NCBI GenBank assembly: GCA_026984045.1
Contig: JALSSV010000098.1
Span: 1 to 64,000, forward strand
Length of the DNA stretch: 64,000 bases
Reading direction: 5' to 3'
Source of the DNA: Chromatiales bacterium
Lineage (GTDB): Bacteria; Pseudomonadota; Gammaproteobacteria; UBA6429; Thiohalophilaceae
In this document: one piece after another, positions 1,928-62,670 of the stretch
Layout: each line of letters begins with the position of its first letter
How positions within the stretch are numbered: position 1 is the first letter of the stretch
Notes under the pieces: model-generated
Databases searched by the model: none
What the model was told of the DNA's origin: nothing
What the model saw: only the letters and a program-made list of their open reading frames with translations
Made by a program: the position numbers and the translations under genes

Positions 1928-2074
1928 AAGTCGTCTTGACCGGTCGCGGGAAAAGCCGGCGATGGGTTCGTCCGGCCGCCCCGTGACCATTCCACGAAGG
2001 CTTGACCTCGCTCGAGGGAGCGGCGAGGACATGACGGTCATGACCGTCTACAAGCCGTGTGGGCGGTGTGTGAT

Positions 2075-2207
2075 GAACACGGAGGACTCGGAGGAACCCA
2101 GAGGGATTGTTGCAAAAATGCCGTTTCCCACGGCCTGACGAGAAAATGCAGAGAAACCACCGAAAACTCCGTGCCTTCCGTGTCTCCGTGTCCTCCGTGT
2201 TCTTTCC
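2075..2207. repeat. Inverted-repeat element, ACACGGAGG-unit arms (tetR-accC gap)
   Basis: Left arm 2075-2094 and right arm 2174-2207 are inverted copies built from short units of the type ACACGGAGG (CCTCCGTGT on the right). They enclose an 80-bp core with no coding potential. The element fills the gap between the convergent tetR and accC genes. Its architecture matches the ACGCAGAGG elements of the trp operon but with a different unit, so it is probably a diverged subfamily. Confidence 0.7.
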
Positions 2208-2227
2208 ACTGAAGCGGCCCGAAGCCT

Positions 2228-5318: not shown

Positions 5319-5461
5319 GGCATTTCTCCTGGTTGTTGGAATTTGTTGTTTCGAAAGCAGTGAATGGTCTTGCTGGATCTTTTCGCGGCGCAAGCCGCGA
5401 TAAATCGGGTTCTGTTGTCGTTCTGTCACGGCGCCCTCGCCGCGACTCGATGGTGACTGAT

Positions 5462-8368: not shown

Positions 8369-9853
8369 ATGAACGAACAGGAATTCGCCGCCCTCGCCCG
8401 CGAGGGCTACAACCGCATCCCCCTGATGGACGAGGTCCTCGCCGACCTCGATACCCCCCTGTCCACGTACCTGAAGTTGGCCAACGGTCCGTATTCGTAC
8501 CTGTTCGAATCGGTCCACGGCGGCGAGAAGTGGGGCCGCTATTCCATCATCGGGCTGCCCTGCCGCACCCTGCTGCGCGTGCACGGCCGCCACGTCACCC
8601 TGCACACCGACGGCGAACTGATCGAGGAGACCGTCACCGACGATCCCCTGGCCTGGATCGAACGCTTCCAGGCGCGTTTCAAGGTGTACCAGCCCGAGGG
8701 CCTGCCGCGCTTCACCGGCGGCCTGGTGGGGTACTTCGGCTACGACACGGTGCGCTACATCGAACCGCGCCTCGGAGAGTGCCCGAATCCCGATCCGCTC
8801 AAGCTGCCGGACATCCTGCTGATGGTCTCCGACGAGGTGCTGGTGTTCGACAACCTCTCCGGCAAGCTATACGTGATCCACTACGTGGACCCGGCCGAGG
8901 CAGATGCCTGGGCCCGAGGCCGCCGGCGCTTGCGCGAGGCCGTCGCCCGCCTGCGCAGCGCCACCCCCTATCATGTGCAGGCCCGCGCCGAGCAGGTGGC
9001 CGAGGCCGACTTCGTCTCCGGCTTCACCCGCGAGGGCTTCCTCGCGGCGGTGGAGAAGGCCAAACGCTACATCGTGGACGGCGACATCATGCAGGTGGTG
9101 CTCTCCCAGCGCCTCTCCATTCCCTTTCATGCCCGGCCGCTGGATCTCTACCGCGCCCTGCGCAGCCTCAATCCCTCGCCCTACATGTACTACCTGGATC
9201 TGGGCGGATTTCACGTGGTGGGCTCCTCGCCGGAGATCCTGGTCCACGTGGAAGACGGCAACGTCACCGTGCGCCCCATCGCCGGCACCCGCCCCCGGGG
9301 CCGGGACGAAGCCGAAGACCGGGCCCTGGAAACCGAACTGCTGGCCGATCCCAAGGAGCTGGCCGAACACCTCATGCTCATCGACCTGGGCCGCAACGAC
9401 GTGGGCCGCATCGCCGAGACCGGCAGCGTGCGGGTCACCGAGAAGATGGTCGTGGAGCGTTACTCCCACGTCATGCACATCGTCTCCAACGTGGTCGGCC
9501 GCCTGCGCCCGGGCCTGTCCAACCTCGACGTGCTGCGCGCCACCTTCCCCGCCGGCACCGTCTCCGGCGCGCCCAAGATCCGCGCCATGGAGATCATCGA
9601 CGAACTGGAACCGGTCAAGCGTGGCGTCTACTCCGGCGCCGTCGGCTACCTCGGCTGGTCCGGCAACATGGACACCGCCATCGCCATCCGCACCGCCGTC
9701 ATCCAGGGCAATACCCTGCACATCCAGGCCGGCGCCGGCATCGTCCACGACTCCGTCCCGGAACGGGAATGGGACGAAACCATGAACAAGGGCCGTGCCA
9801 TCTTCCGCGCCGTCACCCTCGCTGCCGCCGGCCTCGACACGGTGCACAAGTAG
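8369..9853 (+). CDS. trpE: Anthranilate synthase component I
   Basis: A 494-aa chorismate-binding enzyme that makes anthranilate from chorismate together with the TrpG amidotransferase. The N-terminal domain (residues 1-180) contains the typical feedback-site region ([11 protein letters not shown]). The catalytic domain has [29 protein letters not shown] and [14 protein letters not shown]. The start is the ATG at 8369; no obvious Shine-Dalgarno is visible. It heads trpE-trpG-trpD-trpC, but 521 bases containing a GxxExxY cassette separate it from trpG. Confidence 0.97.
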
Positions 9854-9860
9854 CCGGCTC

Positions 9861-10360
9861 GGTGGAAGGAACGCAGAGGGCGCAGAGACGCAGAGGACGC
9901 AGAGTTTTTCAAGAAACGATAAGCAGGGAGGCAGCGATGCACGCCGATACAATCACGGAGAAGTTGATTGGCGCGGCAATTGAGGTACACCGCTATCTGG
10001 GGTCGGGTCTGCTGGAATCGGTTTACCAGCGATGTTTGTGCAAGGAGCTATCATCCCTTGGTCTTCGACATGAGACCGAGGTGCCGGTGACGGTCTGTTA
10101 CAAGGGTGAGGTAATCACCGATGCCTATCGGGCGGATCTTCTGGTTGAGGGAACTGTTGTCGTAGAATTGAAGACCGTCGATACGATCAATGAAAAGCAC
10201 AGGGCGCAACTGCTCACATATCTGAAGCTCATGGAAAAGCCCGTGGGACTGCTGATTAATTTCAATGAAACGGTTCTGAGTCGAGGAGTCAAACGAATTG
10301 TCAACCAATATTGATAACCTCTGCGTTCTCTGCGTCTCTGCGCCCTCTGCGTTTTTTGCA
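9861..10360. mobile_element. ACGCAGAGG inverted-repeat cassette carrying a GxxExxY gene
   Basis: The left arm (about 9861-9909) is a run of degenerate units, ACGCAGAGG / GCGCAGAG / ACGCAGAGG / ACGCAGAG, ending in a T-run. The right arm (about 10318-10360) is its inverse: CTCTGCGTT, CTCTGCGTC, TCTGCGCC, CTCTGCGTT. Between the arms lies one complete gene of the GxxExxY family and almost nothing else. The element sits exactly between trpE and trpG. Sister elements without cargo occupy the next three trp-region gaps. No target-site duplication was identified. Confidence 0.7.
9937..10314 (+). CDS. GxxExxY family protein, predicted PD-(D/E)XK nuclease-like
   Basis: A 125-aa protein named after its conserved G24-x-x-E27-x-x-Y30 motif (in LGSGLLESVY), the signature of the GxxExxY family. 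The core shows D67 followed by E77-L-K79, the D-(x)n-ExK arrangement of PD-(D/E)XK nucleases, so a metal-dependent nuclease fold is likely; activity is not shown for this family to my knowledge. The start is the ATG at 9937, with GGGAGG seven bases upstream. Its G+C content is visibly lower than that of trpE or trpG, consistent with horizontal acquisition. It is enclosed by the inverted-repeat arms of a cassette inside the trp operon. Confidence 0.85.
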   Translation: MHADTITEKLIGAAIEVHRYLGSGLLESVYQRCLCKELSSLGLRHETEVPVTVCYKGEVITDAYRADLLVEGTVVVELKTVDTINEKHRAQLLTYLKLMEKPVGLLINFNETVLSRGVKRIVNQY

Positions 10361-10374
10361 GGATAGGTGAATTC

Positions 10375-10956
10375 ATGCTCCTGATGATCGACAACTACGA
10401 CTCCTTCACCTACAACCTCGTCCAGTATTTCGGCGAGTTGGGCGTGGCGGTGGAAGTCCATCGCAATGACCGCATCACGGTGGAGGAGATCGAGGCGAAG
10501 GATCCCGAGTGGATCGTCATCTCCCCCGGCCCCTGCACGCCCAGAGAGGCGGGCGTTTCGGTGGATGCCATCCGCTATTTTGCCGGGCGCAAGCCGATCC
10601 TCGGCGTGTGTCTCGGCCACCAGAGCATCGGCCAGGCCTTCGGCGGCGAGATCGTCCATGCCGGCGCCATCATGCACGGCAAGACCTCCCTGATACACCA
10701 CAACGACAAGGGCCTGTTCCGCGGCATCGCCAACCCCTTCGAGGCCACCCGCTACCACTCGCTGGTGATCGACAAGGCCAGTCTGCCCGAAGCCCTCGAG
10801 ATCACCGCCTGGACCGAAACCCCGGCAGGCGATCTGGACGAAATCATGGGCGTGCGCCACCGCGACTACCCCATCGAAGGCATGCAGTTCCACCCCGAGT
10901 CCATCCTCACCGAACACGGGCACGATCTGCTGAAGAACTTCCTTGAACAATACTAA
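10375..10956 (+). CDS. trpG: Anthranilate synthase component II (glutamine amidotransferase)
   Basis: A 193-aa class I glutamine amidotransferase that supplies ammonia to TrpE; it may also serve PabB. It opens with [18 protein letters not shown]. The nucleophile Cys is in [10 protein letters not shown] (about residue 79), and the catalytic His and Glu are in [12 protein letters not shown] near the C-terminus. It follows the GxxExxY cassette and precedes another cargo-free element before trpD. The length is typical for TrpG/PabA. Confidence 0.96.
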
Positions 10957-11133
10957 GGTGGAAGGAACGCAGAGGGCGCAGAGACGCAGAGATCGAAGAG
11001 GGATTGAAGTATGATGAGGAAACGGATACAGCCCTGTCGCAACAGAATCCTGCTGTCAATGTCAGAATCGGAAATGCATCTGCAACAAACTCCGCGCCCT
11101 CTGCGTCTCTGCGCCCTCTGCGTTATTTCCACC
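10957..11133. repeat. ACGCAGAGG inverted-repeat element, no cargo (trpG-trpD)
   Basis: The left arm 10957-11001 starts immediately at the trpG stop (GGTGGAAGGAACGCAGAGG, then further units). The right arm 11091-11133 (TCTGCGCCCTCTGCG, then TTATTTCCACC) is its inverse. The core of about 90 bp is A+T-richer and non-coding. The outer GGTGGAAGGAA / TTTCCACC ends are shared with the elements at 9861, 12181 and 27639, which helps define the family ends. Confidence 0.8.
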
Positions 11134-12180: not shown

Positions 12181-12380
12181 AGGTGGAAGTAACGCAGAGG
12201 GCGCAGAGGACGCAGAGAGGGGTTGATGAGACAAGTCGGTTACCATGTTCCGTTTCGGCTGGTCAATTCACCAATGGGTCTATTGTTGTTGTCGGTACTC
12301 TGTGCGACGTTAGTATGATGTTCCGGATATAAAAACTCTGCGCCCTCTGCGTCTCTGCGATCTCTGCGTCCTTTCCACCC
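12181..12380. repeat. ACGCAGAGG inverted-repeat element, no cargo (trpD-trpC)
   Basis: The left arm 12181-12222 (AGGTGGAAGTAACGCAGAGG and further units) and right arm 12336-12379 (CTCTGCGCCCTCTGCG, then TCTCTGCGTCCTTTCCACC) are inverted copies. The core of about 110 bp is A+T-rich, differs from the other cores and has no open frame worth naming. It occupies almost the whole trpD-trpC gap. Confidence 0.8.
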
Positions 12381-13199: not shown

Positions 13200-13210
13200 A
13201 CAGGTTGGGC

Positions 13211-13420
13211 TGTAAAGAACGCAGAGGGCGCAGAGACGCGGAGGACGCAGAGTTTTTGGTTTGGTTCGGCCGGCTGGCTATTGAAAAACGCCGTTTTTCA
13301 GTGGCCTGTTAGCGGCGGGAGCATAGTGCAGATCGAGTCTGGCGGGCCAATCATCATAACAGATAACCAACGTGCCATCTCCGCGCCCTCTGCGTCTCTG
13401 GGGCCTCTGCGTTATTTTCC
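13211..13420. repeat. ACGCAGAGG inverted-repeat element, no cargo (trpC-crp)
   Basis: Left arm 13212-13256 (AAGAACGCAGAGGGCGCAG and further units, ending AGTTTTT) and right arm 13380-13420 (GCGCCCTCTGCGTCTCTG, then GCGTTATTTTCC) enclose about 125 bp of A+T-rich non-coding DNA. This is the fourth element of the series in 3.5 kb. It lies between the convergent trpC and crp genes, where it could also terminate transcription from either side. Confidence 0.78.
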
Positions 13421-13441
13421 AGATACGCGAAAAAAGAAGTC

Positions 13442-16083: not shown

Positions 16084-16109
16084 CCGTAGGAGCGGCGCCC
16101 TCGCCACGA
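16084..16109. repeat. REP sequence 5' of the transposase gene
   Basis: CGTAGGAGCGGCGCCCTCG followed by CCACGAC: a REP palindrome core with one G-to-A change from the other copies. It stands immediately upstream of the REP-associated transposase gene. Four to six related copies follow within 3 kb. Confidence 0.85.
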
Positions 16110-16116
16110 CCAAATC

Positions 16117-16689
16117 TTGTCTTCAGGGAGACATTTTCCTAACATCAAAACATCCCATCCAAGCACAAGGACGTGCCATGCCGAAAAAATCCCCCGCGGC
16201 CACCGCCTGCGCCTCGGCCGCCATTCCGAACCTGGCCGGATCTACCTCGTCACCTTCGTGACCCAGAAACGTGAACCGCTGTTTGCGGACTGGCGGCTGG
16301 GACGGATCGTGGTTCAGGTGCTGCAAGGATCAGCACATCAGGCGAGGACCTGGTGCTATGTGGTCATGCCCGACCACGTTCACTGGCTGATGCAACTGCG
16401 AGAGACAGCCACACTGGAAAACGTGATCCAGAGCGTGAAATCTGTCAGCGCCCATCGACTCAATCGCCGGCTGCGACGGAACGGGAAAGTCTGGCAGGCC
16501 GGTTACCACGACCATGCGTTGAGGCAGGAAGAAGATGTGCAGGCGCTGGCGCGCTATGTGGTCGCCAACCCCTTGCGGGCCGGTCTGGTGAAACGGTTGG
16601 GTGACTATCCGCTGTGGGATGCGGCCTGGCTGGGCACTTGTCGCGGCGAGGGCGCCGCTCCTACAGAACCCGTGCCACTCCCTCCGTAG
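16117..16689 (+). CDS. REP-associated tyrosine transposase (RAYT, TnpA-REP)
   Basis: A Y1/HUH single-strand transposase of the RAYT group that acts on REP hairpins. The HUH motif is MPDHVHW (H87, H89) and the likely nucleophile is Y130 in VWQAGYHDHALR; both are intact. The expected start, ATG at 16178 (MPKKS), is one base out of frame with the conserved RGHRLRLG block. A run of six A and five C lies between, so either a one-base deletion has hit the gene or a TTG at 16117 is used. The last 17 residues (CRGEGAAPTE and onward) are translated from an inverted REP, and the stop codon lies in the next REP. It is flanked by REPs on both sides. Confidence 0.85.
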   Translation: MSSGRHFPNIKTSHPSTRTCHAEKIPRGHRLRLGRHSEPGRIYLVTFVTQKREPLFADWRLGRIVVQVLQGSAHQARTWCYVVMPDHVHWLMQLRETATLENVIQSVKSVSAHRLNRRLRRNGKVWQAGYHDHALRQEEDVQALARYVVANPLRAGLVKRLGDYPLWDAAWLGTCRGEGAAPTEPVPLPP

Positions 16690-16763
16690 GAGCGGCGCCC
16701 TCGCCGCGACCCGTTCCCGGAACCCATCACCCACCCTCGTAGGAGCGGCGCCCTCGCCGCGAC
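16640..16763. repeat. REP cluster 3' of the transposase gene
   Basis: Three copies of the REP: inverted at 16640-16664, direct at 16685-16710 and direct at 16738-16763, all with the GAGCGGCGCCCTCGCCGCG core. The first overlaps the 3' end of the RAYT reading frame. With the copy at 16084 they bracket the transposase, the arrangement expected for a self-mobilising REP source locus. Confidence 0.88.
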
Positions 16764-27638: not shown

Positions 27639-27815
27639 GGTGGAAGGAACGCAGAGGGCGCAGAGACGCGGAGGACGCCGAGAATGGGGGAGTGGGTTGT
27701 CCGTTGTCGTGCCGGTCGGGGGAATTCCATGCCCGGCTCGGGGACAATGTTCCAGAATCACTGTGTGGCCGCAAAATGGCTCGCCGCGCACTCGGCGTCT
27801 CTGCGTCCCTTCCAC
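27639..27815. repeat. ACGCAGAGG inverted-repeat element, no cargo (thyA-folA)
   Basis: Left arm 27640-27684 (GGTGGAAGGAACGCAGAGG, then GCGCAGAGACGCGGAGG) and shorter right arm 27789-27815 (CTCGGCGTCTCTGCGTC, then CCTTCCAC) are inverted. About 100 bp of unrelated core lies between them. The outer ends GGTGGAAGG / CCTTCCAC are the same as in the trp-operon elements. It separates thyA from folA without disrupting either. Confidence 0.78.
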
Positions 27816-27829
27816 AATGGCCTGATTCC

Positions 27830-28341: not shown

Positions 28342-28378
28342 AAAATCCAACGCAAAGGCGCCAAGGACTCAAAGGGTC
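28342..28378. repeat. Half element, CGCAAAGGCGCCAAGG-type arm
   Basis: A single arm of units like AACGCAAAGGCGCCAAGG and ACTCAAAGGG lies between the convergent folA and apaH. It is related to the complete element in the gatA-gatB gap. No matching inverted arm is seen, so it is either a remnant or a solo copy. A similar half element lies at 47476-47522. Confidence 0.5.
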
Positions 28379-31284: not shown

Positions 31285-31327
31285 GGGGCGGGAGTATTGC
31301 CCGGCCGGGGTCGCGCCGACAAGTCCT

Positions 31328-31393
31328 CGTAGGTCGGCCTTCAGGCCGACATGCAATCGTCACAACCCCTGTCAGCCTTCAGGCCGACCTGCG
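31328..31393. repeat. GTAGGTCGGCCTTCAGGCCGAC repeat pair, copy 1
   Basis: The palindromic core GTCGGCCTTCAGGCCGAC at 31330-31350 and a related AGCCTTCAGGCCGACCTG at 31373-31392 lie between the HEACH-motif and CheW-LysM genes. A second pair is at 34037-34104. This is a separate REP family from the GGAGCGGCGCCC one. Confidence 0.75.
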
Positions 31394-33915: not shown

Positions 33916-34036
33916 GGTGGGAACGGGGATGAAAACGGGGCTACACGATACCGGAGCCGGAGGCAAAAGAGTAGCCGTTGGCGGAGCTCGACCTCCCCCC
34001 GGCGCGGAGGACGGGCAATATTCGGGTTTCCCCCGT

Positions 34037-34104
34037 CGTAGGTCGGCCTTCAGGCCGACAAGGACTCTGCACCGATCGCTAGTCGGCCTGAAGGCCGACC
34101 TACA
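34037..34104. repeat. GTAGGTCGGCCTTCAGGCCGAC repeat pair, copy 2
   Basis: A direct copy (GTAGGTCGGCCTTCAGGCC, 34037-34060) and an inverted copy (GTCGGCCTGAAGGCCGACC, 34081-34104) face each other 20 bp apart. They occupy the divergent gap between rsmA and the DUF1624 gene. With copy 1 they bracket the segment holding the CheW-LysM gene and rsmA. Confidence 0.8.
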
Positions 34105-34152
34105 TTTGGGAGAAGGATTCAGGCTCGCCGCCGACCGCCGGTTTCTGTCAGA

Positions 34153-34887: not shown

Positions 34888-35927
34888 GCGGAGCGGGGCG
34901 GCGCATCCTGGTGGTGCGCAACGACAAGCTGGGGGACTTCATGCTCACCTGTCCCGCCTTCGCCCTGTTGCGCGCGGCCCTGCCCGGGGCGCGCATCGAT
35001 GCCCTGGTGCAGGACTACACGGCGCCCATGGCGGCCCGCTTCGGCACCATCGACGGCATTGTACGGGATCCGGGGCCCGGCTGGCGCAACACCCTGGCGC
35101 TGGCGAAGCAGTTGCGCGCCGCGCGCTACGAGGCGGCGGTGGTGCTGTTTTCCAGCACCCGCATCGCCATCGCCCTCTGGCTGGCCGGCATTCCCTTGCG
35201 CCTGGCACCGGCCACCAAGCTGGCCCAGATCTTCTTCCACCGCCGGATCCGCCAGCGCCGCTCACGGTCGGAAAAGCCCGAGCACGTTTACAACCGGGAG
35301 CTGGCCGAGGCCTGCCTGGCGGCCATCGGCGTGCCGCTGCCGCCCCTGCCGGCACCGCCCTGCCTGCGTTTTTCCGCAACGGAACGGGCGGCCACGCGCC
35401 GCGCTTTCCTGGCCCGCCATGAGCTCGCGGAAGAGGCCCGGCTGCTGTTCGTGCATCCCGGCCACGGCGGCTCGGCGGCCAACCTGAGCGTGGCCCGGTA
35501 TGCCGAACTGCTGCGCAAGCTGGCGCCCCCGCCCCCCTGGCGGGTGGTGATCACCGCCGGACCCGGCGAGGAGGCGCAGGCCCGGGACCTGGCCGCGCGG
35601 ATCCCGGAACTTGCGCCGGTGGTGCACGTCTCCCGCGAGGGGTTGGAGGCCTTCGCCCGGGTGCTGGACCTCGCCGACCTGTTCATCAGCGGCTCCACCG
35701 GCCCTCTGCACATTGCCGGCGCCCTCGACCGGCCCACCGCCGCCTTCTACACCCGCCGCCGCTCCGCCACCGCCCTGCGCTGGCAGACCCTCAACCGCCC
35801 CGCAAACCGCCTGGCCTTCTGCCCGCCGGAGACGGCCGGGGAGGAGGAGATGACGGCCATCGATCTGGACGCGGCGGCGGGGGCGATCCGGGCGGCGTTC
35901 ATGGGGGCTTCGAAGGATGAGGTGTAA
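34884..35927 (+). CDS. Glycosyltransferase family 9 (heptosyltransferase-like)
   Basis: A 347-aa GT9 enzyme like the ADP-heptose:LPS heptosyltransferases. It opens with RILVVRNDKLGDFMLTCPAF, the conserved GT9 start. The C-terminal donor-binding half has FVHPGHGGSAANLSVARYAEL (about residue 192) and DLFISGSTGPLHIAGAL (about residue 275). It probably adds a sugar to the LPS core on the cytoplasmic face. The start is a GTG at 34884 that overlaps the upstream stop (GTGA). Codon usage matches its neighbours. It is inserted, with its partner, opposite to the pdxA-rsmA direction. Confidence 0.87.
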   Translation: MSGAGRRILVVRNDKLGDFMLTCPAFALLRAALPGARIDALVQDYTAPMAARFGTIDGIVRDPGPGWRNTLALAKQLRAARYEAAVVLFSSTRIAIALWLAGIPLRLAPATKLAQIFFHRRIRQRRSRSEKPEHVYNRELAEACLAAIGVPLPPLPAPPCLRFSATERAATRRAFLARHELAEEARLLFVHPGHGGSAANLSVARYAELLRKLAPPPPWRVVITAGPGEEAQARDLAARIPELAPVVHVSREGLEAFARVLDLADLFISGSTGPLHIAGALDRPTAAFYTRRRSATALRWQTLNRPANRLAFCPPETAGEEEMTAIDLDAAAGAIRAAFMGASKDEV

Positions 35928-36103
35928 GAAACGCAGAGGGCGCGGAGACGCAGAGTACGCCGAGTGGATGGGTGATTTGAGCACCGCAGGGTGCGTTCGC
36001 GAAGCAACGCATCGGGCGGGTGAATCCTGTGCCTGATGGTGCGCTGCGGCGCGAGCGCACCCTACGTCGGCTTTTCTTCTCCGCGCCCTCTGCGTTATTT
36101 CCA
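35928..36103. repeat. ACGCAGAGG inverted-repeat element with an inner palindrome (GT9-pdxA)
   Basis: Outer arms 35928-35964 (AAGAAACGCAGAGGGCGCGG and on) and 36078-36103 (CTCCGCGCCCTCTGCG, then TTATTTCC) are inverted. Inside lies a different inverted pair: CGCAGGGTGCGTTCGCGAAG at about 35987-36006 and the inverse-like GTGCGCTGCGGCGCGAGCGC, then ACCCTAC, at about 36039-36066. The element sits between the convergent GT9 and pdxA genes and overlaps the pdxA 3' end. Confidence 0.7.
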
Positions 36104-37096
36104 GTCCGCCTCACGGTGGCAGGATAGCCCGGTCATGGCAATGGCCGTTTCGATGGCGGCGGTGAGGCTGCCCGGATCGGCGCGGCCGGTGCCGGCCAGT
36201 TCGCAGGCGGTGCCGTGGTCGACGGAGGTGCGCACGAAGGGCAGGCCGAAGGTGATGTTGACGGCCCGGCCGAAGCCCAGGTGCTTGAGCACGGGCAGGC
36301 CCTGGTCGTGGTACATGGCCAGGACGGCGTCGCAGTCGGCGAGGCGGTCGGGGTTGAAGGCGGTGCAGGCGGGGACGGGGCCTTCCAGATCCATGCCGGC
36401 GTTGCGCAGGCGGTCGAGCACCGGCGTGATGATTTCGATCTCTTCGCGGCCCAAGTGGCCGTCCTCGCCGGCGTGAGGGTTGAGGCCGAGTACGCGGATC
36501 CGGGGGCGGTCGATGCCGAAGTGGCGGCGCAGGCCGTCATGCAGCAGTTGCAGGGTGGTGGTCAGGCGATCCGGATCGAGGCTGGCGGCCACTTGGGTCA
36601 GGGGCAGATGGGTGGTGGCCAGGGCCACGCGCAGGCCGGGGGCGGCCAGGACCATCAGCACCTGTTCGGTGCCGGTGAGTTCGGCGAGGAATTCGGTATG
36701 GCCGGTGAAGGGCTGGCCGGCCGCGTTGATCACGCCCTTGTGCACGGGGCCGGTGACCAGGGCGCCGAACACGTGGTTCACGCAGCCGAGGGTGGCGCGG
36801 CGCAGGGTTTCCAGCACGTAGTCGGCGTTGGCCGGATCGGGTTTGCCCGCTTCGGCGGGCACGGCCAGGGGCACGGGGATCACCGGCAGTTCGCCGGCGC
36901 GGTGCTCGCGGCAGTCGCCGTGGAAGTCGGTGAGCCGGATGGACAGTTCGAGTTGCCGGGCGCGGGCCTCGAGCAGTTCGGGATCGGCGATGGCCACCAG
37001 CGGGACGGGCCATTCCCGGGCCGCGACGTTCAGGAGCAAATCGGGTCCCACGCCGGCCGGTTCGCCGGGGGTGACGGCGATGGGCGGCGCGGGCAT
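36095..37096 (-). CDS. pdxA: 4-hydroxythreonine-4-phosphate dehydrogenase
   Basis: A 333-aa metal-dependent NAD enzyme of vitamin B6 (pyridoxal phosphate) synthesis. Motifs are AVTPGEPAGVGPDLLL at the start, TGPVHKGVINAAG, PFTGHTEFLAELTG with a metal-binding His, LGLNPHAGEDGHLGREE and MYHDQGLPVLKHLGFGRAVN. The ATG at 37096 is used; a GTG six bases upstream would overlap the surA stop (GTGA) and is a serious alternative. Either way it is translationally close to surA, the conserved arrangement. Confidence 0.95.
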   Translation of the reverse strand: MPAPPIAVTPGEPAGVGPDLLLNVAAREWPVPLVAIADPELLEARARQLELSIRLTDFHGDCREHRAGELPVIPVPLAVPAEAGKPDPANADYVLETLRRATLGCVNHVFGALVTGPVHKGVINAAGQPFTGHTEFLAELTGTEQVLMVLAAPGLRVALATTHLPLTQVAASLDPDRLTTTLQLLHDGLRRHFGIDRPRIRVLGLNPHAGEDGHLGREEIEIITPVLDRLRNAGMDLEGPVPACTAFNPDRLADCDAVLAMYHDQGLPVLKHLGFGRAVNITFGLPFVRTSVDHGTACELAGTGRADPGSLTAAIETAIAMTGLSCHREADWK

Positions 37097-38614: not shown

Positions 38615-38773
38615 CTCCGTGCCGACATCTGATTCATGTGCCAAATTTCAGCATGTCGGGAAGATGCCTTTCGCCGGTTCCGCAACGCTTGAGCCGGCCT
38701 ACGGTGTCGGGGGATGGCGAGCGAAGTTGCGGGATGGCGGCGGAAACGCTTGCGGGCCACCTGCCGTTGCCCC

Positions 38774-47522: not shown

Positions 47523-47673
47523 GTTTGTTCGTGGGTCGGCCTTCAAGCTGACAAGGGCCGCCATCACTTGCCGGCAACCCCTTCCCGAATTGCCCCCGGC
47601 GGGCGCGCTCTGGGCGACCCCGTTTCCTCCGTGAACGCCGTGTTTCTTGTCGGCCCGCTTGTGGCCGGTACGG

Positions 47674-48444: not shown

Positions 48445-48472
48445 GGCAGATTCAGGGACGAGTGGCGAGGAT

Positions 48473-48555
48473 CGTAGGCCGGCTCAAGCGCAGCGGAGCC
48501 GGCATGGACGGGGTCGCGGTGTTCGCCGGCTCCGCTGCGCTTGAGCCGGCCTACG
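48473..48555. repeat. Perfect 31-bp inverted repeat, CGTAGGCCGGCTCAAGCGC family
   Basis: Arm 48473-48503 and arm 48525-48555 are exact inverse copies separated by 21 bp, forming a very stable hairpin between the YdcF-like and lipA genes. Single arms of the same sequence occur at about 53994-54024 and, partially, at 38690-38705. Confidence 0.9.
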
Positions 48556-53941: not shown

Positions 53942-53993
53942 GAAGACGGTGGACACGATGAATCGGATACTCCGTAATGGCTGCGGCTGAAAC

Positions 53994-54024
53994 GGCGGCT
54001 CCGCTGCGCTTGAGCCGGCCTACG
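53994..54024. repeat. Single CGTAGGCCGGCTCAAGCGC-family arm at the mltB 3' end
   Basis: GGCTCCGCTGCGCTTGAGCC, then GGCCTACG, is nearly identical to the right arm of the 31-bp inverted repeat at 48525-48555. Its CTA supplies the TAG stop codon of mltB (54020-54022), so the repeat arm forms the end of the gene. Confidence 0.75.
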
Positions 54025-55006
54025 AATTTGGTCCCCTCAGATAATGCCGTCGGATCTCCCGGCTCAACTGATACACGGCCATGGCATACAGGGCGCTGCG
54101 GTTGTAACGGCTGATCACGTAGAAGTTGTGCCACACCACCCAGTGCTCGGGACCGTCCGCGCCGTCCAGTTCGATGAGAGCGCCCTTGAGGTGCGGAGGC
54201 AGGCCCTGGGGCAGCACCACGCCCAGGGCCAGCAGATCGTCCTGGCTGTAATGGGGCGCGAGGTTGCCGTCGATCAGTTCCCGCCAGCGCTTGCCGTGCA
54301 CCCGTACCCTGTGAGCGATCGGTTCGCCCGGATGCCAGCGATGGCGGTAGAAATAGTTGGCCACCGAGCCGATGGCGTCGGCCGGATCGTTCCACAGATC
54401 CCGCTTGCCGTCACCATTGAAGTCCACCGCATAATGACGGAAGGAGCTGGGCATGAACTGGGGCAGGCCCATGGCACCGGCGTAGGAGCCGAGCTGCCCT
54501 TGCGGCGGGAGTTTTTCCTCGCGGGTCATGAGCAGGTATTCCTTCAGCTCCTTGCGGAAGAACCCGGCGCGGGGCGGATAGGCGAAGGCCAGGGTGGAGA
54601 GGGCCTCGAGCACGCGAAAGCGGCCGGCGTGGCGGCCATAGCGGGTCTCCACGCCGATGATGGCGACGATGATCTCTTCGGGGACGCCGTAGGTTTCCCG
54701 GGCCCGGGCCAGCAGATCGGCATGCTCGCGCCAGAAGCGCACGCCACCGTCGAGGCGATCGGGGGTGAGGAAGATGGGCCGGTATTCCTTCCAGGGCTTG
54801 CTCTCGGCGGGCCGCGAAATGGCGTCGAGAATCGACTGGTGCAGTTTCACGCCGGCAAACAGGGTTTGCAGTTGCCGGCGATCGAAATCGTGCTGGCGGA
54901 CCATCTCGTCGATGAAGGCGCGCAGGGCTACCGGATCGGGCGCAGGGCGGGCCAGGGCCGAAAGGGGCAGGCACAGGCAGGCGAGCAGGAGCGGGAAAAA
55001 CTTCAT
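54020..55006 (-). CDS. mltB: Membrane-bound lytic murein transglycosylase B
   Basis: A 328-aa SLT-type transglycosylase that cuts glycan strands to 1,6-anhydroMurNAc ends. The signal peptide (residues 3-19, FFPLLLACLCLPLSALA) is followed by the catalytic Glu E120 in IIGVETRYGRHAG and by SYAGAMGLPQFMPSSFRHYAV. An EF-hand-like loop DFNGDGKRDLWN also matches MltB/Slt35. No clear lipobox is seen, so it may be soluble. It lies between rodA and rlpA in the elongation locus. Its products feed the AmgK/MurU recycling route. Confidence 0.94.
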   Translation of the reverse strand: MKFFPLLLACLCLPLSALARPAPDPVALRAFIDEMVRQHDFDRRQLQTLFAGVKLHQSILDAISRPAESKPWKEYRPIFLTPDRLDGGVRFWREHADLLARARETYGVPEEIIVAIIGVETRYGRHAGRFRVLEALSTLAFAYPPRAGFFRKELKEYLLMTREEKLPPQGQLGSYAGAMGLPQFMPSSFRHYAVDFNGDGKRDLWNDPADAIGSVANYFYRHRWHPGEPIAHRVRVHGKRWRELIDGNLAPHYSQDDLLALGVVLPQGLPPHLKGALIELDGADGPEHWVVWHNFYVISRYNRSALYAMAVYQLSREIRRHYLRGPNS

Positions 55007-62566: not shown

Positions 62567-62670
62567 CGGAAAAATCCAACGCAAAGGCGCAAAGACGCAG
62601 AGAGCGCGAAGGAAATCATGTCATCCTCTCTGCGTTCTTTGCGCCTTTGCGGCTTTGCGTTGACATTTTC
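62567..62670. repeat. Compact GCAAAGGCGCAAAG hairpin element (gatA-gatB)
   Basis: Left arm 62567-62611 (AAAAATCCAACGCAAAGGCG and on, ending ACGCAGAGAGCGCGAAGG) and right arm 62625-62670 (CCTCTCTGCGTTCTTTGCGC and on, ending CGTTGACATTTTC) are inverted over nearly their whole length. Only 13 bp lie between them. It is the smallest complete element and links the GCAAAGG and ACGCAGAGG subfamilies, since both units occur in one arm. Confidence 0.8.

Follow-up and report, generated by a model that had tools for sequence, protein, structure and literature searches.

A GxxExxY nuclease-like gene enclosed by inverted heptamer arrays and its likeness to REPIN/RAYT systems

RAYT enzymes are distinctive, are found as a single copy per genome and have their own type of repeat at their flanks, and the corresponding REPINs are dispersed, non-autonomous inverted doublets that are extragenic, have a variable spacer, form hairpins and possess a left end (LE) and a right end (RE) (PMC3116915). 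The GxxExxY gene analyzed here lies between trpE and trpG in a 64,000-nucleotide stretch of DNA from a Chromatiales bacterium (the window) and resembles these systems in several respects. It is distinctive, present as one copy in the whole 2.98-Mb genome and flanked by a cognate repeat, and its arrays are dispersed inverted hairpin doublets with a variable interior, an LE and an RE, adjacent arrays being convergent in 44 of 44 cases in this genome. It differs from them in its predicted enzyme class, a PD-(D/E)XK nuclease with a QxxxY motif, whereas RAYT is an HUH/Y1 enzyme, and in its arms, which are tandem 7-mers with 8-9 nt spacing and carry no GTAG (or CGTC) tag.

TIRtrons and TIRYTs (PMC3733652) are similar to this locus in that an enzyme gene is located within terminal inverted repeats that are also dispersed as a family. 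TIRYTs, however, are tyrosine transposases, and the GxxExxY protein lacks the HUH motif as well as the fold of these enzymes. Cas4 (SSO0001) and the lambda-type exonucleases (PDB 4ic1, 1avq) are the closest in fold and share the motif set D...ExK...QxxxY. The GxxExxY protein is shorter and lacks the conserved Fe-S cysteine set, only C33 being nearly invariant among 50 sequences; at this locus it is associated with inverted arrays and not with a recombination or CRISPR operon. The locus also recalls MITEs and their autonomous parent, as short gene-less copies share their ends with the gene-bearing copy, but the interiors are unrelated to the gene, the parent is single copy and no clear target-site duplication (TSD) was seen. 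In the literature searched, GxxExxY, PDDEXK_3, TIGR04256 and PF13366 received only incidental mentions that gave no function, a description of a GxxExxY-array system was not found, and searching by the repeat letters retrieved no paper. A GxxExxY gene is listed for Chrysochromulina parva virus BQ1 (PMC12085832).

The GxxExxY gene, its arms and the cargo-free copies

The gene (9937..10314, plus strand) is located between the trpE stop at 9853 and the trpG start at 10375, begins with ATG preceded by GGGAGG, and encodes a PD-(D/E)XK nuclease-like protein of 125 aa. In profile searches this protein scored 147.5 bits against TIGR04256 (cut-off 35) and 146.1 bits against PF13366 (PDDEXK_3; cut-off 22), exceeding both curated cut-offs and thus belonging to the GxxExxY family. 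Residues D67, E77 and K79 did not vary among 24 aligned relatives or among 50 proteins drawn from many phyla, confirming the complete gene with an intact catalytic core reported by the initial annotation. H88, Q91 and Y95 were likewise invariant, as were the GxxExxY residues in the 50 sequences from many phyla, and Q91-x3-Y95 forms a QxxxY motif downstream of D67...E77xK79. The structure of the protein was predicted with a pLDDT of 94.5, and the PDB folds closest to the model were SSO0001 (Cas4), AdnAB, LHK-Exo and lambda exonuclease. The conserved motif and the predicted fold assign GxxExxY to the QxxxY class of PD-(D/E)XK enzymes, with RecB, Cas4 and lambda exonuclease. A sequence search of the PDB with the protein gave no match, and Cas4 profiles matched it weakly, under the Pfam and NCBIfam cut-offs.

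GxxExxY is annotated across many phyla, in bacteria and some archaea. A phage search gave no match, and only 8 of 72,556 plasmids carried the gene. Distant GxxExxY genes were observed on large viral contigs of IMG/VR (L182-L185) with other inverted repeats at their flanks, which in L184 and L185 were ACTTAAAATTTT arrays.

The LE arm of the gene-bearing element (9862..9904, plus strand) consists of GTGGAAGGAA and four CGCAGAG units with 9-8-9 nt spacing. The RE arm (10319..10361, minus strand) is its mirror image, with CTGCAAAAAA and four CGCAGAG units on the minus strand, and the two arms are 88% complementary. The array unit is a degenerate 7-mer, C[AG]CN[AG][AC]G (CRCNRMG), repeated with 8-9 nt spacing, and the arrays converge around the gene. 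An alignment of 83 arms revealed a conserved block of 43 bp, formed by TGSAANNAA and four units, and the information content fell to about zero on either side of this block, outward as well as inward. With at most one mismatch allowed, the 2.98-Mb genome contained 129 occurrences of GCAGAGRNGCAGAG and 9 of the reversed pattern.

The two ends of one element differ (GTGGAAGgAA in one and cTGcAAAtAA in the other), and left/right pairs were observed in 27 of 34 cases against 16.9 expected (p = 3.5e-4). LE and RE are thus distinct, and this handedness of the unit speaks for an element moving as a pair. The idea that one arm converts the other through the hairpin was rejected, because the arms within an element were less alike than shuffled arms at LE/RE positions. 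As single-stranded DNA the elements folded into strong hairpins (z = -7.7 and -7.3), and an Rfam search with them gave no match.

About 60 cargo-free element pairs carrying the 43-bp ends of the gene-bearing element were found genome-wide. The gene does belong to the repeat family, as initially annotated. The accompanying statement that this copy differs from its sisters only by holding the gene proved wrong: the sisters share only the 43-bp ends, and their interiors (40-200 bp) are unlike the gene and rarely alike. An all-against-all comparison of 54 interiors revealed no gene remnant, and only 7 pairs of interiors were related, several of them being neighbours or nested other repeats. As the interiors are mostly unrelated, recent copying of whole elements is rarely visible.

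Cargo-free elements of the window are located at the trpG/trpD junction (10957..11133; DNA hairpin z = -7.7), which in the sister genome G001 holds a CACGGAG-type element, at the trpD/trpC junction (12182..12379) and downstream of trpC (13209..13422). Two further elements have a degenerate (27639..27825) or a shortened (35921..36105) right arm. A degenerate element at 2070..2210 is of the CACGGAG unit type, the majority type of G001, and a third unit type, CGCAAAG with the outer end AAAATCCAA, for which this genome encodes no cognate GxxExxY gene, is present at 62571..62660. CGCAAAG-type arrays with the same outer end were also observed at 28342 and 47481 and are possibly relics of a lost nuclease.

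Arrays, unit letters and gene content in other genomes

Convergent arrays were found on both sides of 28 of the 33 intact GxxExxY genes in relatives and on one side of 3 more, and the opposite-polarity control gave 1 of 33. A wide sample was formed by the 80 loci most similar to the GxxExxY gene of the window, 73 of which were testable, and covered Bacteroidota, Planctomycetota, Verrucomicrobiota, Acidobacteriota, Chloroflexota, Cyanobacteria, Proteobacteria and Methanosarcinales. In these phyla 48 of the 73 loci had convergent arrays on both sides and 16 on one side, against 5 in the opposite-polarity control. Shifted positions gave 1 of 191 for the relatives and the wide sample together. In a blind inverted-repeat score, 40 of 79 GxxExxY loci were positive compared to 3 of 289 shifted positions. 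Many loci that failed the strict pattern still had arms, for example with CACAGAT units or 10-nt spacing, and some Bacteroidota loci lacked a clear second arm. Four chromid or plasmid copies were examined; the copy of B. finegoldii had complete arms, the other three had one-sided or degenerate arrays, and at least three of the four were located between co-directional genes. Enclosure of the GxxExxY gene by inverted arrays is a general architecture, and the association pointed out at this locus by the initial annotation is found around most of the genes analyzed.

The heptamer varied by genome (CGCAGAG, CACGGAG, CGCAAAG, CACCAAG and CACAGAG). When the dispersed arrays of a gene's own genome were compared with the arm flanking the gene, their mean rank was 2.05 of 12, where 6.5 was expected (19 loci, 12 genomes), and none of 10000 permutations gave such a match. 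Arm sequence and gene are therefore correlated, and cargo-free copies resembling the arms of the resident gene are present in other carrier genomes as well. In G000, CGCAGAG was found both in the dispersed arrays and at the arms of the gene. In its sister genome G001, whose three corresponding trp junctions hold elements of the same architecture with CACGGAG units, this unit was present in most dispersed copies and in the arms of its GxxExxY gene. In both genomes a minority of elements is of the other unit type, which makes turnover of populations a likelier explanation than in-place mutation. G031 has two GxxExxY copies with different unit orders, and each order is also dispersed.

The number of arrays was determined in 58 related genomes, which are not phylogenetically independent. 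The control-corrected array excess had a median of 105.5 in genomes with the gene (n = 24) and 0 in those without it (n = 34; MWU p = 4e-10, phylogeny ignored), and within the family alone the medians were 109 and 0 (p = 7e-7, phylogeny ignored). In an Acidobacteriota order the values were 35 with and 13 without the gene (p = 9e-4), and gene copies correlated with arrays (Spearman 0.49), phylogeny being ignored in both comparisons. The link between gene presence and array number is thus strong but uncorrected for phylogeny. The gene is absent from G057 and G011, which keep some arrays; such genomes, together with unit types that have no cognate gene, indicate that relics or other routes exist.

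A RAYT/Y1 enzyme as mover of the arrays was rejected, since Y1 presence was uncorrelated with array number: gene-positive/Y1-negative genomes had a median of 68 arrays and gene-negative/Y1-positive genomes a median of 0. A RAYT-type gene is also present in the window (16086-16763; Y1_Tnp match at 16243-16563); it has its own ordinary GTAG-tagged REPs (GTAGGAGCGGCGCCCTCGCCGCGAC) and no heptamer arrays at its flanks and offers a useful yardstick. More GTAG REP copies were observed near 5429, 7204, 7290, 18844 and 18890.

A proposed mode of action and its alternatives

Since the architecture agrees with that of REPIN/RAYT in every point but enzyme class and tag, we propose that GxxExxY maintains and spreads the hairpin elements in trans. 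The best reading of the data, and in our judgement a fairly probable one, is a system of the REPIN/RAYT kind in which an unrelated PD-(D/E)XK nuclease takes the place of the transposase. The nuclease activity of GxxExxY, its substrate, the place where it cuts and the way in which insertion proceeds are inferred, and we propose the following course. The protein would act in trans on dispersed cargo-free LE and RE pairs of its own unit type. Where DNA is single-stranded during replication or repair, such a pair would fold into a long hairpin, and it is on this single-stranded hairpin that GxxExxY probably acts. The nuclease would recognize the tandem 7-mers and the end motif in the stem and cut at or near its base, after which the freed or broken DNA could either be copied to a new intergenic position or be repaired with a further copy as template. 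The outcome would be that one unit type spreads and displaces the others within a genome.

Mobilization of the cargo-free copies by GxxExxY is plausible. If it takes place, a lifestyle of the REPIN/RAYT kind has at least two origins, in unrelated enzymes, and a nuclease resembling Cas4 functions in mobility without CRISPR. The placement of the gene in cognate arrays and its match to them in number and letters provide the GxxExxY family with a first testable function, and a large class of intergenic repeats, of the CACAGAG, CGCAGAG and CACGAAG types, with a candidate owner. A broader proposal is that these elements form a new class among the mobile DNAs of bacteria and archaea, namely hairpins with tandem-heptamer ends that are propagated by a stand-alone Cas4-like nuclease without an HUH, DDE, serine or tyrosine recombinase, the nuclease and its heptamer letters co-evolving and the dominant element type of an entire genome being able to turn over within a genus. 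We regard the case for this proposal as evenly balanced.

The main rival is a homing-type nuclease, in which GxxExxY would colonize hairpin repeats moved by something else, cutting empty or foreign arrays and being copied into them by repair. The gene does stay at conserved junctions, recurring at trpE|G, pth|ychF, thiG|trmB, cbbM|Q and cusF|A (gene names assigned by reading the adjacent coding sequence rather than by annotation), and in the protein tree the copies group largely by insertion site rather than by genome, with site groups that span genera. The two unrelated gene types found at cbbM|Q also agree with homing, and so does the cus site, where L055 (G019) and L058 (G002) carry different GxxExxY genes and arms within near-identical host flanks, which indicates that elements can replace each other. 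On the other hand, genomes without the gene rarely have arrays, and few of them, and the letters of the dispersed arrays track those in the arms beside the resident gene; both observations speak against homing. The obvious other mover, RAYT/Y1, is moreover uncorrelated with the arrays, and we consider homing unlikely. When G002 and G019 were compared, most sites held other repeats or another unit type rather than a clean empty site, in a classification made noisy by the T allowed at unit position 2, since a GAG-type unit then also matches its own opposite strand.

The initial annotation had favored a classical autonomous transposon accompanied by MITE deletion derivatives. The part of this claim that concerns shared ends was borne out: the same two ends, LE and RE being distinct, are found on the gene-bearing and the gene-less copies. 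The filled and empty sites also fit a transposon, as the trpE|G spacing was 8-54 bp in most gene-less relatives compared to 473-551 bp with the gene, and within genus g11 the junction was filled in G022, G028 and G033, while G011 had an empty site with the trpE stop overlapping the trpG start. Derivation of the short copies by deletion, however, was not supported, since the gene-bearing form is single copy in its genome, no cargo-free interior keeps any part of the gene, and the gene copies are grouped by site across genera. Pseudogenes and remnants of GxxExxY were found among the loci of relatives. No clear TSD was found at the filled and empty trpE|G alleles; the other sites were too diverged, intergenic DNA diverging too fast to define most insertion edges. 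We consider this explanation very unlikely.

An equally modest place is given to the possibility that the arrays are host regulatory hairpins, acting as terminators or mRNA stabilizers, with the nuclease as their RNA- or DNA-processing factor. The hairpins are strong, and the elements, being located between co-directional genes of operons, would be transcribed. The letters, however, are replaced wholesale from one species to another within a genus, sites have been both acquired and lost, and relatives lacking GxxExxY run the same operons without the elements. In addition, a terminator needs no LE/RE asymmetry, and Rfam held no match, so that a regulatory role appears highly improbable. Chance, or an artefact of a genome family full of unrelated palindromic repeats, is refuted by the flank counts, the same architecture being present in many phyla and in archaea with shifted and opposite-polarity controls near zero.

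Palindromic repeats of other families were observed beside the heptamer arrays. In the genus of G002 and G019, nested palindromes of different families recur; at G002:C1:698137 CGCAGAG arms surround an unrelated palindrome that is armless at the orthologous position of the sister species (G019:C3:707340), a difference that may reflect either gain or loss. Within the window, a second palindromic family (TCGTAGGTCGGCCTTCAGGCCGAC) was present at 31327-31363, 34036-34112 and 47529-47565, and another (CGTAGGCCGGCTCAAGCGCAGCGGAGCCGGC), with perfect 31-bp arms, at 38670-38703, 48472-48555 and 53991-54025.
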